Virus record (IMG/VR): IMGVR_UViG_3300024502_000002
Span: 1 to 63,641 of that record
Origin: a virus
Direction: 5' to 3' (one strand)
Length of the DNA: 63,641 nucleotides
The notes under the pieces were generated by a model. It made no database searches and was not told where the DNA came from. It worked only from the letters and a program-made list of their open reading frames with translations. Shown one piece after another: positions 8,834 through 33,249 of the stretch (position 1 is its first letter; every line of letters begins with the position of its first letter). Made by a program: the position numbers and the translations under genes.

Positions 8834-10009
8834 TTAGTAGCTCGGGCAAACCGTGCCGGTCACAGCGGTGCAACGCTTGACCATCAATGCGTATGCGTAT
8901 TTTCGCTTTACCGTCGGTTTCCAGCCAGCGACCATCCAAGCCCACCAGCGACCGTTGTTCTCAAGCGGGTTGAGAGTTTCGTTCGCGATGTTGCGCCAGA
9001 CGATTTCACCGTTGTAGTTCGGAGCGAGGAACTTGGTGTCCTCACCGACCGTGGAACGGGAAGGCGGAGTCTGACGGATGACGGCCTCGGGGTGCCACAG
9101 GTAGATGACTTCGTAGCCAGCGGTCAGGTAGTCCGGGTTCACGATGCTCTGCGTGCCGATGGTAGCAGAAGCGGTCGTGTAGTAGGGGACTGCGACGTAA
9201 GCGCCGTTCACGAAGTTGTAGCGGGGCATACGATAGTCGATGCAGTGCATGAAACCACCGTAGGGTTTATCCACGCCCCAAGCCTGAAGGAGCTGAGCGC
9301 CTTCGTAGCCCTTGCCCATCTGAGCGAAGCGGAAGTCCTCACGGACCGAGCTAGAACCCTTGATGATCTGGCGGTGAGCCTCGGGGGACATGATGGCCGT
9401 GATGAGCGCAGCACCATTGGACATGGCGTAAGGCTCTTCACCACCACCATCCTGCATGATACGGTCCCAAAGAGGATCAAGCTGATCCTGAGAGGCCATA
9501 TACTCGGCAGGGACGTTCGGGAAAGTCGAGCTTGTCCCTTCGGTCTGCGAGGTGTTGTTGACGATCTTGGTGCCAGCGTAATACTGGAACCAATACTTCG
9601 AGCGGTCCTCCCAAGTATCAACGATGGTGTCGCTGAAGTTGGCGCGGATGTTCTTGACCTGCTCCTCGAAGAGGTAGCCGAACTGGGCATCTGTAAGACA
9701 GATGGTGTCCGATTTGGTCATGTTCTGCTCGATGGTGTAAGCCTCCGTGCTGAGAGCAGGAGAGACAACAGAGGGTTCCGGTGTGCAGTTGTTGTTGCTG
9801 CCGTCCGGTTGGGTAACTTGGACCCAGCCATCACCGCCAGAAGGATTCGAGCGGAGAGTGTTGACGGTTACCGGAGAAAAACCTATACCCAATGGGAAAT
9901 TTTCCTTCTGGATAAGGGCTGCGACGCGGCCTTTGGCACGCATCAAACGACGGACGCGTCCTTCAAGACGGGATGCGTCATAAGCAAAGGCTTGTGAGAG
10001 GTTGGCCAT
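8834..10009 (-). CDS. Major capsid protein, 391 aa
   Basis: Called from size, position and composition: it lies below portal and scaffold genes, has its own terminator, and is aromatic- and glycine-rich with a mixed alpha/beta pattern typical of HK97-type shells. An early helix with basic residues (SRLEGRVRRLMRAKGRV) resembles a capsid N-arm. No signature was matched by tool. A 336-base gap and an inserted HNH gene separate it from the scaffold gene. Confidence 0.75.
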   Translation of the reverse strand: MANLSQAFAYDASRLEGRVRRLMRAKGRVAALIQKENFPLGIGFSPVTVNTLRSNPSGGDGWVQVTQPDGSNNNCTPEPSVVSPALSTEAYTIEQNMTKSDTICLTDAQFGYLFEEQVKNIRANFSDTIVDTWEDRSKYWFQYYAGTKIVNNTSQTEGTSSTFPNVPAEYMASQDQLDPLWDRIMQDGGGEEPYAMSNGAALITAIMSPEAHRQIIKGSSSVREDFRFAQMGKGYEGAQLLQAWGVDKPYGGFMHCIDYRMPRYNFVNGAYVAVPYYTTASATIGTQSIVNPDYLTAGYEVIYLWHPEAVIRQTPPSRSTVGEDTKFLAPNYNGEIVWRNIANETLNPLENNGRWWAWMVAGWKPTVKRKYAYALMVKRCTAVTGTVCPSY

Positions 10010-29885: not shown

Positions 29886-30076
29886 AAACAACCTCTCTTT
29901 ACGACGAAGCCGCCGCCGCCCTTGATGCTGTGATTAAAATCCATACCGACAGGCATCCTGACCGTGATCGAATGGCAATCCAAAACGGCGCGATGCGTGC
30001 TATCATCTGCTCATGGGCCGCACAGCCCTCCCGATTCCCCAACTGCCTCGAAACACTCAAGAACCAACTCCAATGA
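29870..30076 (+). CDS. Small helical protein, 68 aa
   Basis: A helical soluble protein (SLYDEAAAALDAVIKIH, NGAMRAIICSWAAQP). It overlaps both neighbours. No family recognised. Confidence 0.55.
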   Translation: MPTPLKTTSLYDEAAAALDAVIKIHTDRHPDRDRMAIQNGAMRAIICSWAAQPSRFPNCLETLKNQLQ

Positions 30077-30291
30077 ACCCCGAACTCGAACTCTTTCTCA
30101 TCGCCTTCGTCTCAGGAGCCGCTACCATGCTGCTGATCCTGTTTCCCATTTGGATTCGATATGACCGCAACGTGAACATTGAGCGCATCAAGAACACCGC
30201 CGAGGCCTTTGATCGCGGCTATGACCTTGCGCGGAAACAAGGCGAATTAAAGCCGTATTCGGTGCTTGCAAACCTCAACCAATTACCGTAA
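30073..30291 (+). CDS. Single-span membrane protein, 72 aa
   Basis: The start at 30073 (MNPELELFL). One transmembrane helix at about residues 7-28, then a basic cytoplasmic helix (RYDRNVNIERIKNTAEAF). Its stop codon forms part of the -10 box of the promoter for the RNA that follows. Confidence 0.6.
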   Translation: MNPELELFLIAFVSGAATMLLILFPIWIRYDRNVNIERIKNTAEAFDRGYDLARKQGELKPYSVLANLNQLP

Positions 30292-30294
30292 GGT
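30266..30294 (+). promoter_or_regulatory. Promoter for the gene-free block, TTGCAA-N17-TAAGGT
   Basis: TTGCAA (30266-30271), 17 bases, TAAGGT (30289-30294). No open frame begins after it; the predicted start near 30301 leads straight into the 630-base gene-free block. Confidence 0.65.
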
Positions 30295-30300
30295 TACTCC

Positions 30301-30930
30301 GTGACCGACACACGCCAAGGTATTAGCGTTACCTAGTGAAGGCTGACCCTCCAGTCTGGAATGTCGGAGAGGGCATTTTGATCTTTGAAAGTTTTTTTCC
30401 AAATGACTCGGCGCATGGTCCGCAAGACCATCCCGCGACACTAAAAGCAGGAAGTAACGCGTTCTTGCCTGTTCAATGAGTGTAGGGAGCTTCTCCGGTG
30501 AAAGCCGAATGAGAGGCCCGAGTCGCCAATTTGCCTGCCGTGCCTGTGCTGGCCTTCTGTGAATCACCCGCGACTTGCCTCGTTGGCATGAGTGAGCAGA
30601 AAGCGCGAAAGAGCACAATGAACTAATGCTGCATGTTGATGATCCCGAGTGTTGCAGTTTCTCGGACTCTCGCGGCGGCAGGCAACCAATTTGAGCGCGT
30701 GGCGGAATTAGACGCAGATGCGGGTATCATCGCACGAAAACCCTCAGTGAAATCAAGCTCGGATACATGGACCGAGTAAACGCTGTGCAATTTGCAGGTA
30801 TCCAGTCCTGCCGCGCTCAACGCTTGCTGGTAGCAGTGCTAAACCAGATAGTGATGCCATCACGAATTCTGCTCGAATAGAGCTATGGCAAGACAACCCG
30901 CTTGTTCACGCAGGCGGGTTGTTCTTTTTC
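30301..30930 (+). ncRNA. Candidate large structured non-coding RNA, ~630 nt
   Basis: Between a promoter and a strong terminator lies a block with no plausible gene on either strand. It is rich in local stems: CCGACA/TGTCGG (30305/30362), TCCA/TGGA, ATGGTC-CGCAA-GACCAT, CGGT-GAAA-GCCG with a GNRA loop, CCGAG/CTCGG twice, and a long-range GAGCGCG (30693) with CGCGCTC (30812). Size and phage setting resemble the large ornate phage RNAs GOLLD and ROOL, but I cannot match their consensus by eye. The GAGCGCG part resembles a tRNA-Leu start, yet the anticodon arm does not fit. Confidence 0.5.
30893..30930 (+). terminator. Rho-independent terminator of the non-coding block
   Basis: A nine-pair stem, ACAACCCGC (30893-30901) with GCGGGTTGT (30914-30922), a 12-base loop and then TCTTTTTC. 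A perfect intrinsic terminator on the plus strand. A sixth CGTAAGGTT copy (30931) follows without a matching -35 box. Confidence 0.9.
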
Positions 30931-31005
30931 CGTAAGGTTGAGGTTGTAAACATTGCGGCCTTGTGTTAAACTTGAAATCTACTCATCAACACCAAACAAA
31001 ATACT

Positions 31006-31036: not shown

Positions 31037-31195
31037 ATGAATGAACTTTCAAAAATCGCATCTCTTCTTGGCAAGATTGGCGGCTCCTCGAAAAGCGAAA
31101 ATAAGAAAAGGGCGGCTCGCGCAAATGGAAAAAAGGGAGGTAGACCGCCAAAAACTAATAAACGATCCAAATCTAAGGCCGATAAAAGGGTATGA
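31037..31195 (+). CDS. Small basic GKKGGRPPK protein, 52 aa
   Basis: MNELSKIASLLGKIGG then a Lys/Arg-rich end with ANGKKGGRPPKTNKRSKSK, the AT-hook-like pattern of a small phage family. Probably binds DNA. It starts at the predicted transcription start and overlaps the HNH gene in another frame. Confidence 0.65.
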   Translation: MNELSKIASLLGKIGGSSKSENKKRAARANGKKGGRPPKTNKRSKSKADKRV

Positions 31196-31658
31196 AGACT
31201 TGTATCGAGCAAGCCTTTGTGGAAATATCATCAGCCTTAGAAGCACAAAAACTCTGATTGGATCAAAAAACGGTTTTGGCTATCTTCATATAACATTATG
31301 CCGCCATAAAAACGATCAAAAGCAGTTTCAAGTTCACCGCTTAATATGCCAAGCGTTTCATGGAAAAGCACCATCCAACCTGCATCAAGTAAACCATAAA
31401 AATGGAATCAAAAATGATAACCGCCCTGACAATCTTGAATGGGTAACAGTAAGTGAAAACCGCCTACACGCTTATCAATTCGGCCTCAATGCTTCCGGCG
31501 AAGCGCATCATTGGTCTGCTTTAACAAAAGACCAAGTTGAAGAAATACGAAAAATAGGAAGATCAATACCTCAACAAAAGATAGCTAACATTTTTGGAGT
31601 CAGTCAAACCTGCATCAGTAAAATACTAAACAACAAACACTGGAGACATCACCAATGA
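31125..31658 (+). CDS. NUMOD4-HNH homing endonuclease with helix-turn-helix tail, 177 aa
   Basis: The start at 31125 (MEKREVD) is preferred; an in-frame ATG at 31041 is possible. The order is NUMOD4-type motif (IKGYEDLYRASLCGNIISL), HNH core (QVHRLICQAFHG, NHKNGIKNDNRPDNLEWVT), and a C-terminal helix-turn-helix (PQQKIANIFGVSQTCISKIL). A/T-rich codons differ from those of neighbours, a sign of recent entry. It overlaps the GKKGGRPPK gene and the next gene by ATGA. Confidence 0.8.
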   Translation: MEKREVDRQKLINDPNLRPIKGYEDLYRASLCGNIISLRSTKTLIGSKNGFGYLHITLCRHKNDQKQFQVHRLICQAFHGKAPSNLHQVNHKNGIKNDNRPDNLEWVTVSENRLHAYQFGLNASGEAHHWSALTKDQVEEIRKIGRSIPQQKIANIFGVSQTCISKILNNKHWRHHQ

Positions 31659-32458
31659 GCGAACACACTGAACTAGAAATCCTAAAACCCGAACGCATCA
31701 CCGCCATCGAGCAAGTCACCCGAGCCGAGGTGGACACACAAATCAGCACGGCCAAAAAGTATCCACGCACGCTGTCCAAGGTGAAGGCCGACATGCTTTC
31801 CTTTGCCACGCTGGATCAAGAAACTGCCGAGAACTGTTTCTACACGTTGCCTCGCGGTGGCAAAAGCATTCAAGGTCCATCCGTTCGATTGGCTGAAATC
31901 GCCGTTTCGTGCTACGGCAACCTGCGTGCTGGCAGTCGCATCATCGACACTGTCTCCAGTGGAGACAGTCCGCACGTTGTTATTCAGGCAGTTTGCCATG
32001 ACCTCGAAAAGAACGTGGCCGTCACGGTTGAGAAACGTCGTCGCATCGTTGGCAAGAAGTCCAAAGGTGGAGCAATCGACGAAGATGACATCAACCTCGC
32101 GGCCAACGCAGGTGCCGCCATCGCTTTCCGTGACGCTGTATTCAAAGTTGTTCCCGGCGCTCTCATCAAGCCCATCTTTGAGCAGGCCAAGCAGGTCGCC
32201 ATCGGTGATGCCAAAACACTCGCAGAACGCCGCCAGCGTGCGGTTGAATCGTTTGGGAAAATGGGCGTGCAGAAGGACAAGATTCTGGCTTTGCTTGGCA
32301 AACGTTCTGTGGACGACATCGACCTCGCTGACCTCGAAACACTTTTTGGTCTTCACACAGCCATCAAGGACGGCCAGACCACCATTGATGAAGCCTTTAC
32401 TAAGGATGCGCCCAAAGCCGATCTGAAACTTCCATCCTCTCAGGAGGCCGCTGAATGA
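31655..32458 (+). CDS. Putative single-strand annealing protein, 267 aa
   Basis: The body contains SIQGPSVRLAEIAVSCYGNL, then DDINLAANAGAAIAFRDAVF and KVVPGALIKPIFEQAKQVA, a pattern of phage proteins encoded beside RecE-like exonucleases. Such partners anneal complementary single strands during phage recombination (RecT, Erf or Rad52-like). The assignment rests on this neighbourhood and on pattern memory; no fold was computed. The C-terminus is low-complexity. It overlaps the exonuclease gene by ATGA. Confidence 0.55.
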   Translation: MSEHTELEILKPERITAIEQVTRAEVDTQISTAKKYPRTLSKVKADMLSFATLDQETAENCFYTLPRGGKSIQGPSVRLAEIAVSCYGNLRAGSRIIDTVSSGDSPHVVIQAVCHDLEKNVAVTVEKRRRIVGKKSKGGAIDEDDINLAANAGAAIAFRDAVFKVVPGALIKPIFEQAKQVAIGDAKTLAERRQRAVESFGKMGVQKDKILALLGKRSVDDIDLADLETLFGLHTAIKDGQTTIDEAFTKDAPKADLKLPSSQEAAE

Positions 32459-33249
32459 TCCTTCTCGAAGACGACATCTACCGGCCACATCCGGCGCTCA
32501 ACTACTCGGCAGCCAAGGCGTTGCTGAAGTCTCCCAAGCACTTTCAAGCGGCCATCAATCGCAAGTTTGAGCCATCGCGTGAGATGCAGATTGGCACCTA
32601 CGTCCACGAAATCGTTCTGGAAGGTAAGTCACCGTCCTACATCGTGCGCCCTGCTAACATCGACCTTCGCACCAAAGAGGGTAAGGCATGGCGAGACAAG
32701 AACGCAGGCCGTGAAATCCTGTCGCCAGAAGATGATCTGGCCGTCCGCATGGCCGCTGATGCCGTTCGCAAAAGCGCGGACGCCCAGTATCTTCTTGGTC
32801 GTTGCCCCAATCGTGAGCATGGCATCGTGCAGACATTCGGCGGCGTGGAAATCAAGGGCAAGCTGGATGCCTACGGGACGGATGAGGCTGGCAAACCGAT
32901 CGTTCTGGATTTTAAGACAACATCCAATGCCGATCCTGAAGAGTGGGGCCGCAAAGCCTTTGGCCTTCGTTACCCGATGCAGACTGCATGGTATCAATCT
33001 CTACTCGCCTTGGAACTTGGCCTTGATGAACCGCCAGCCTATTTCTGGCTGTGTGTCGAGACGCAAGAGCCTTACGACGTTGTGATCTACCAACCTCCCG
33101 AGGAGGCTCTTGATATTGGTCGCGCTCAAATGAAGCATTGCATTGAGCTTTACAAGACTTGCAAGGAGTCTGGCAAATGGCCCGGATACTCTCGCGGCAT
33201 CATTGAACTCGAAGTTCCTGCATGGGAACGCAAACGCTGGATCAAATAA
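32455..33249 (+). CDS. RecE-like PD-(D/E)XK exonuclease, 264 aa
   Basis: Contains the nuclease core GKLDAYGTDEAGKPIVLDFKTT (about residues 136-157: D139, D152-F-K154) and then YPMQTAWYQSLLALEL with the helix Gln/Tyr expected of the YqaJ/Cas4/RecE group. N-terminal LNYSAAKALLKSPKHFQAAI and GTYVHEIVLEG fit exodeoxyribonuclease VIII-like proteins. It would resect double-strand ends for the annealing protein encoded just upstream. Confidence 0.8.
   Translation: MILLEDDIYRPHPALNYSAAKALLKSPKHFQAAINRKFEPSREMQIGTYVHEIVLEGKSPSYIVRPANIDLRTKEGKAWRDKNAGREILSPEDDLAVRMAADAVRKSADAQYLLGRCPNREHGIVQTFGGVEIKGKLDAYGTDEAGKPIVLDFKTTSNADPEEWGRKAFGLRYPMQTAWYQSLLALELGLDEPPAYFWLCVETQEPYDVVIYQPPEEALDIGRAQMKHCIELYKTCKESGKWPGYSRGIIELEVPAWERKRWIK

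Follow-up and report, generated by a model that had tools for sequence, protein, structure and literature searches.

A modular phage RNA with a putative tRNA-Leu-like module in which an insert substitutes for the anticodon arm

What does a phage do with some 640 nt of DNA that encode no conserved protein? The window analysed here, the whole 63,641-base stretch of an IMG/VR virus record, carries a non-coding, strongly folded block directly downstream of a 92-aa ORF (30013-30291). A first-pass annotation had described this block as gene-free from 30301 to 30930. The absence of a conserved protein was borne out, but its limits lie at approx. 30292-30928. Small ORFs do exist in the block, and comparison of five of them with relatives revealed no conserved protein. 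The largest, a 111-aa frame with a TTG start on the minus strand, differs from each relative by 6-9 non-synonymous versus 2-3 synonymous codon changes, and its matches in the relatives L125 and L128 lie in different frames. Thus, it is not conserved as a protein. The entire block is structured beyond chance, with a minimum free energy of −232.8 kcal/mol (z=−4.47), a value reached by none of 20 shuffled sequences, and the GAAA-capped stem was recovered at approx. 30489-30515.

On the plus strand, the block ends with an intrinsic terminator (30892-30928) consisting of a stem at 30892-30923 plus CTTTTT. Its presence was predicted correctly, but the stem comprises 14 base pairs instead of nine. 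Because a simple terminator scan is expected to yield approx. 1.6 terminator-like sites per shuffle, the value of this terminator rests on its strength and on its conservation in relatives. Upstream, the proposed promoter on the same strand (30266-30294) is present as a sequence, with TTGCAA (30266-30271) separated by 17 nt from TAAGGT (30289-30294), but was missed by a consensus scan (0 sites; 1.0 expected by chance). It overlaps the end of the upstream ORF. In L020, L125 and L128, a −35-like TTGATA precedes TAAGGT at the same 17-nt spacing despite a different upstream gene end, and the candidate promoter is possibly real. Searches of the block with Rfam and ARAGORN returned no RNA family, no tRNA and no group I intron; weak Rfam matches to ctRNA_pGA1 (on the terminator), OrzO-P and SNORD39 scored far under the gathering scores and were rejected. 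The initial view of a large structured non-coding phage RNA is upheld: the block folds beyond chance, encodes no conserved protein, has changed in a strongly compensatory way among its homologues and is conserved like a cassette.

This RNA is a chain of separately closed modules on the plus strand in the order M1, M2, M3, M4, M6 and terminator. M1 at the 5′ end (30292-30378) is closed by the stem CCGACA/TGTCGG and contains the hairpins AGGTA-TTAGCGT-TACCT and AGGCTG/CAGTCT. M2 (30405-30528) has an acceptor-like stem, GACTCGG/CCGAGTC, followed by GCCA, as well as inner stems and the GAAA-capped arm. M3, also termed module B (30531-30685), is closed by TTGCCTGCCG/CGGCAGGCAA and followed by CCA. 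The tRNA-like M4 (30693-30818) is followed by the two hairpins of M6 (30819-30891), which is 100% identical in L103. Piece by piece, the fold z-scores are −6.9 for the terminator, −4.0 (−3.99) for 30405-30529, −2.5 for the M6 hairpins (30820-30894), −1.5 for the tRNA-like domain, −1.4 for M3 and −0.7 for M1.

Relatives combine the same modules differently. The order is M1-M5-M2-M3-M4 in L020 and L126, M1-M5-M2 in L125, L127 and L128, M1-CDS-M3-M4-M6 in L103 and M1-CDS-M3 in L098, so that M1 alone precedes a small CDS in the latter two. M1 is 93-95% identical in L020, L125, L126 and L128, and M2 is 92-93% identical in relatives. The defining pattern of M3 was found in 16 viral contigs; its second helix has changed on both sides in four pairs in a compensatory manner, and the module carries two hypervariable inserts. 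A GUGCU/AGCAC pseudoknot in M3 is a proposal, with 84% of the alignment cells paired and no double changes. Directly upstream of M3, a small cysteine-rich ORF (with DDDLNEPLGEPACQLGGECESCQ in one case) is present in L014, L095, L097, L098 and L103.

M4 contains the GAGCGCG/CGCGCTC pairing noticed at the outset. It was confirmed between 30693-30699 and 30812-30818 and closes a tRNA-Leu-like domain as its acceptor stem. From 5′ to 3′, the GAGCGCG strand is followed by U8 and G9, a D-arm GCG-GAATTAGA-CGC (GCGGAATTAGACGC, 30702-30715) without G18-G19, a 78-nt insert ending in U48 (30716-30793), a T-arm GCAGG-TATCCAGT-CCTGC with an 8-nt loop (30794-30811) and the CGCGCTC strand of the acceptor stem. 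Hence the 7-bp acceptor, the T-arm, the D-arm and U8/A14/A15/U48 of tRNA (RF00005) are all in place. The loops, AATTAGA in the D-arm and TATCCAGT in the T-arm, do not show the combination of G18-G19 and TTCRANY that marks a tRNA. An anticodon arm (5 bp, 7-nt loop, U33) is absent from the fold of 30716-30793, and no CCA follows the acceptor. The element was not recognised as a tRNA by Rfam at the gathering score, nor was it called by ARAGORN. In contrast to these tools, R1, a covariance model whose training set excluded the rows of the window and of L020, matches the element at 58.5 bits (E=1e-14, model E-values being rough) and nothing else in the window. The window element thus has everything that defines the proposed family, namely an independent covariance-model match, no anticodon arm, and matching D- and T-loop types.

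The family was gathered by exact D-arm patterns, and nearly all its sequences are metagenomic. A 20-nt pattern retrieved seven contigs with the same frame and mostly different inserts, and a 17-nt pattern 76 contigs. A second D-loop, AATGTAAAGA, first met in relatives of the window RNA, was scanned for separately. Altogether, viral contigs contain 66 distinct elements, 43 with the D-loop AATTAGA and 23 with AATGTAAAGA, that share a 7-bp acceptor, a T-arm, the tRNA core U8/A14/A15/U48 and one of the two fixed D-arms. The D-arm is fixed by the search pattern and shows one compensated pair change among the 43 elements. The acceptor stems vary widely across the family yet are nearly always paired. 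In the 43 cores, aligned without inserts, 99.5% of the cells are paired (75.9% after shuffling), double changes number 156 (43 after shuffling) and the covariation score is 0.652 (0.159 after shuffling); at six of the seven acceptor pairs, four or five kinds of pair occur and both strands have changed. As these cores were preselected for pairing, controls matter. Among shuffled sequences, 12% pass the pairing rule, as compared to 51 of 71 viral matches to the 17-mer and one of 15 cellular matches. The other 14 cellular matches, all in genome contigs, are due to chance or coding sequence, and the single real one is in L118. With a near-miss D-arm pattern and a slightly stricter rule, no element was found in 19 contigs. 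Judged from these counts, the family is viral and nearly absent from cellular genomes.

Across 296 genomes of the L118 phylum, R1 reached at most 41.8 bits among the matches listed, nearly all of them 81-87 nt long. We infer from this length that they are ordinary tRNA-Leu, and anticodon arms were checked for 12. One family member, L021, passes the Rfam tRNA gathering score (34.0 versus 29 bits) with the anticodon region skipped. NCCA follows the acceptor in 8 of 44 elements (p=4e-7). The elements reside in short intergenic gaps, mostly in the orientation of the preceding gene, and some form tandem units with short AATTT-like linkers; in L061, canonical tRNA-Leu genes adjoin the element. Isolate-phage matches to the tRNA-like query of one relative turned out to be ordinary phage tRNA 3′ ends and were discarded.

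D- and T-loops are coupled. T-loops starting with TT occur in 4 of the 43 AATTAGA-type elements, whose T-loop is mostly an 8-nt TANNNAAY, versus all 23 of the AATGTAAAGA type, where TTCAAAT prevails (Fisher p=5e-14). The nucleotide preceding the T-stem is T in 66/66 elements, which fits U48 of the A15-U48 core pair. Ten viral units have kept G18-G19; all their T-loops start with TT, and eight of them are likewise without a normal anticodon arm. A single fixed test detected an anticodon arm in 3/43 AATTAGA-type and 4/23 AATGTAAAGA-type elements as compared to 12/12 cellular tRNA-Leu. The tRNA core and loop features together with the missing anticodon arm indicate a tRNA-Leu-like lineage from which decoding has been removed. 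In L094, which looks like a provirus in an isolate genome, a Glu-like tRNA unit whose anticodon arm has been replaced (9102-9188, minus strand; Rfam tRNA 43.7 bits) is arrayed with the Leu-like element. This unit suggests that replacement of the anticodon arm may not be limited to tRNA-Leu. A tRNA-Leu-like unit with a hairpin in the D-loop (L065, 7562-7691, minus strand) adjoins a family member that shares its acceptor stem.

In the 66 elements, inserts of 21-223 nt occupy the place of the anticodon arm. Most of them are mutually unrelated, and the window insert has no similarity to other family inserts. Comparison of the window with L103 shows virtually no differences in the frames of M3 and M4 or in the following stretch of more than 100 bases, whereas the inserts are unalignable beyond chance and the type of D- and T-loop switches together with the insert. 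Inserts have likewise been swapped between L020 and L126 within nearly identical surroundings. Conversely, the inserts of L045 and L047 are 81% identical, although compensated changes distinguish their acceptor stems. In several elements, a long helix immediately ahead of the T-arm closes the insert. The payload of the window showed no complementarity to the phage's own genome beyond a best stretch of 14 nt (E=0.014), which we take as chance. The insert is all but missing from L019, L023 and L029, which carry just a tiny capped hairpin of 21-22 nt. Thus, the frame by itself must serve some purpose, and delivery of a payload is not the whole story. Fragments of rRNA are convincing in L022 only. 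There, a module beside the tRNA-like element contains a near copy (2334-2365) of the L11-binding (GTPase-centre) hairpin of 23S rRNA, which matches positions 1056-1087 of the E. coli 23S rRNA with 90.6% identity across 32 nt (E=2e-6). The inserts of L069 (2719-2760) and L072 contain a canonical T-arm and acceptor 3′ half followed by the matching 5′ half, an arrangement like a circularly permuted tRNA nested in the first tRNA-like element.

The RNA block is directly followed by a NUMOD4/HNH_3 homing-endonuclease-like gene (31041-31658, plus strand; Pfam HNH_3 3.8e-16), a setting that we liken to that of SegB beside the tRNA genes of T-even phages. The next gene (31655-32458) has no Pfam match, and its best relative in isolates, with 41% identity, is from Microcystis phage Mae-JY30. 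A PDDEXK nuclease gene (DUF3799; 32455-33249, plus strand) belongs to the downstream recombination region. The decamer CCGTAAGGTT is found at both block borders, just before the block (approx. 30286-30296) and just after the terminator (approx. 30930-30940), and YGTAAGGTT is repeated at both borders of the RNA block in relatives. Among isolate phages, no DNA match was found to the 5 kb around the block or, in a sensitive search, to the block itself. According to PHROGs, the genes neighbouring tRNA-like elements include no common protein partner.

From its sequence, the block is a modular, terminator-ended phage RNA, the last module of which belongs to a tRNA-Leu-derived phage family with a variable structured insert instead of the anticodon arm. 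In this anatomy, a tRNA-like frame with a replaced anticodon arm, we have great confidence. That the frame acts as a chassis and the insert as its payload is a reading to which we incline slightly. The frame would stabilise the RNA and let host enzymes treat it as a tRNA, but could not decode, as the anticodon loop is missing and, in most cases, so is a normal G19-C56 elbow. The working, fast-evolving and presumably target-specific part would be the insert. The most likely job would be that of a mimic or decoy for host factors in contact with tRNAs or with further RNAs of translation, tRNA-directed anti-phage defences among them. Some members may undergo tRNA-like maturation, as the NCCA enrichment (8/44) suggests. 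RNase P and the ribosome contact the tRNA elbow; loss of G18-G19 removes this elbow, so that processing by RNase P would not be assured. A simple tRNA decoy is at odds with the loss of the anticodon and, usually, of the elbow. The best overall explanation, a tRNA-shaped chassis with exchangeable payloads that probably mimics tRNA or serves as a decoy against host factors, has about an even chance of being correct. For a mimic or decoy function with a payload as such, the chance is even or slightly less. Our suggestion of a phage-specific class of tRNA-disguised RNAs, stripped of the decoding arm, displaying quickly swapped payloads that capture or block host factors and strung together with other modules in one transcript, is tentative, and a role as a decoy of defence systems, argued by analogy, is rather doubtful.

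Several other readings deserve consideration. tRNAs punctuate transcript processing in mitochondria, and the units might similarly mark cleavage by RNase P, RNase Z and related enzymes in polycistronic transcripts, with the insert as filler. The short intergenic gaps, the frequent shared orientation with the preceding gene, the tandem units with their linkers and the NCCA enrichment speak for it. We consider this improbable, as the window block has its own terminator, most elements are devoid of the G19-C56 elbow, and some relatives retain the inserts, which are structured and reach 223 nt. No better is the case for a cis-acting leader, in which the modules would control the downstream recombination operon via the terminator in the manner of a tRNA-shaped operator: several relatives have recombination-type genes right behind the block, with the same terminator at its end, and M1 precedes a CDS in L098 and L103, but the downstream genes differ (HNH gene, P-loop ATPase and others) and elsewhere the element is found in unrelated gene contexts. 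The conserved ends with swapped interiors and the adjoining HNH endonuclease and PDDEXK nuclease would also befit a recombination site at the DNA level, such as an integron attC site or a homing target of the HNH enzyme. The tRNA tertiary core, the coupling of D- and T-loops and the kept G-U stem pairs point to RNA, however, and acceptor sequences that differ among phages leave no common recombination core, which makes a DNA site quite unlikely.

The tRNA resemblance itself could be explained in two further ways. A ribosome-rescue mimic related to tmRNA, i.e. a domain binding SmpB or EF-Tu, would share the topology of the tmRNA tRNA-like domain and account for the long helix with which several inserts close before the T-arm. 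It is also quite unlikely, given that tmRNA matches are missing except for an L069 fragment, that 21-nt inserts are very unlikely to hold a tag frame and that CCA is encoded in only 8/44 elements. Cryptic tRNA-Leu genes, spliced from introns or insertions to ordinary phage tRNAs, are suggested by the clearly tRNA-Leu-like frame, the canonical tRNA-Leu genes in L061 and the units retaining G18-G19. The shortest elements, with a total of 69 nt, are too small for an anticodon arm plus a variable arm, two D-loop types are without GG, and Rfam and ARAGORN detect neither a group I intron nor a tRNA in the window; we give this idea hardly any credence.

Decades of work on phage tRNA genes have dealt with tRNAs that decode or that counter defences. 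The replaced anticodon arm recurs in dozens of unrelated phages, and if our reading is true, widespread non-decoding, tRNA-derived RNAs with interchangeable inserts would represent a new use of the tRNA fold. The silence of ARAGORN and Rfam on the window implies that tRNA finders miss such elements, which are probably under-annotated in phage genomes. We found no description of the family in the open-access literature, the scope of our search; the family is apparently undescribed so far, while tRNA-like RNAs as a kind are already known.

Among known systems, GOLLD and ROOL were the relatives proposed initially. They too are ornate RNAs of large size that phages encode close to tRNA genes and whose function is unknown, and GOLLD linkers may hold tRNAs (PMC12286853). 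The window RNA does not resemble them in sequence or structure, without an Rfam match at the gathering score or up to E=10 with permissive filters, and is instead a chain of exchangeable modules; this kinship was therefore abandoned. With tRNA-Leu (RF00005), the family shares the acceptor, the D-arm GGCGGAA..AGACGC, the T-arm and U8/A14/A15/U48, but differs in the missing anticodon arm, the usual lack of G18-G19, the TANNNAAY T-loop of the main subfamily and the insert of 21-223 nt. The tRNA-like domain of tmRNA (RF00023) is likewise a tRNA mimic with an RNA insert at the anticodon position. In contrast, short family members have no plausible tag reading frame, judged by insert length, and CCA is not conserved; the only Rfam tmRNA match in the window or relatives is a 15-bit T-arm fragment in L069. 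The bacterial Y RNA YrlA is likewise built of modules and has arms that resemble the D-, T- and acceptor arms of a tRNA (PMC8394870). In YrlA, the paired RNA ends form a Ro-binding stem, whereas the family has no such stem and both of its ends, 5′ and 3′, are located at the acceptor; Rfam detected no YrlA in the window or relatives. Phage tRNAs directed against retron-Eco7, PrrC, PARIS or Septu are phage-encoded tRNA-shaped RNAs as well; such tRNAs defeat tRNA-cutting defences, and in T6 a homing endonuclease adjoins the tRNA locus (PMC11555353, PMC13096335). Those tRNAs decode, which the family elements cannot. Closest in design is the engineered tRNA scaffold, in which the acceptor, D- and T-arms are kept and an insert replaces the anticodon loop. 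Its stability in E. coli (PMC3753655) indicates that a chassis-insert architecture is viable in bacteria. The scaffold is man-made and the family natural. If our reading holds, phages would provide the natural counterpart of this laboratory tool, along with over 60 sequences in which the binding partners of the inserts could be sought.
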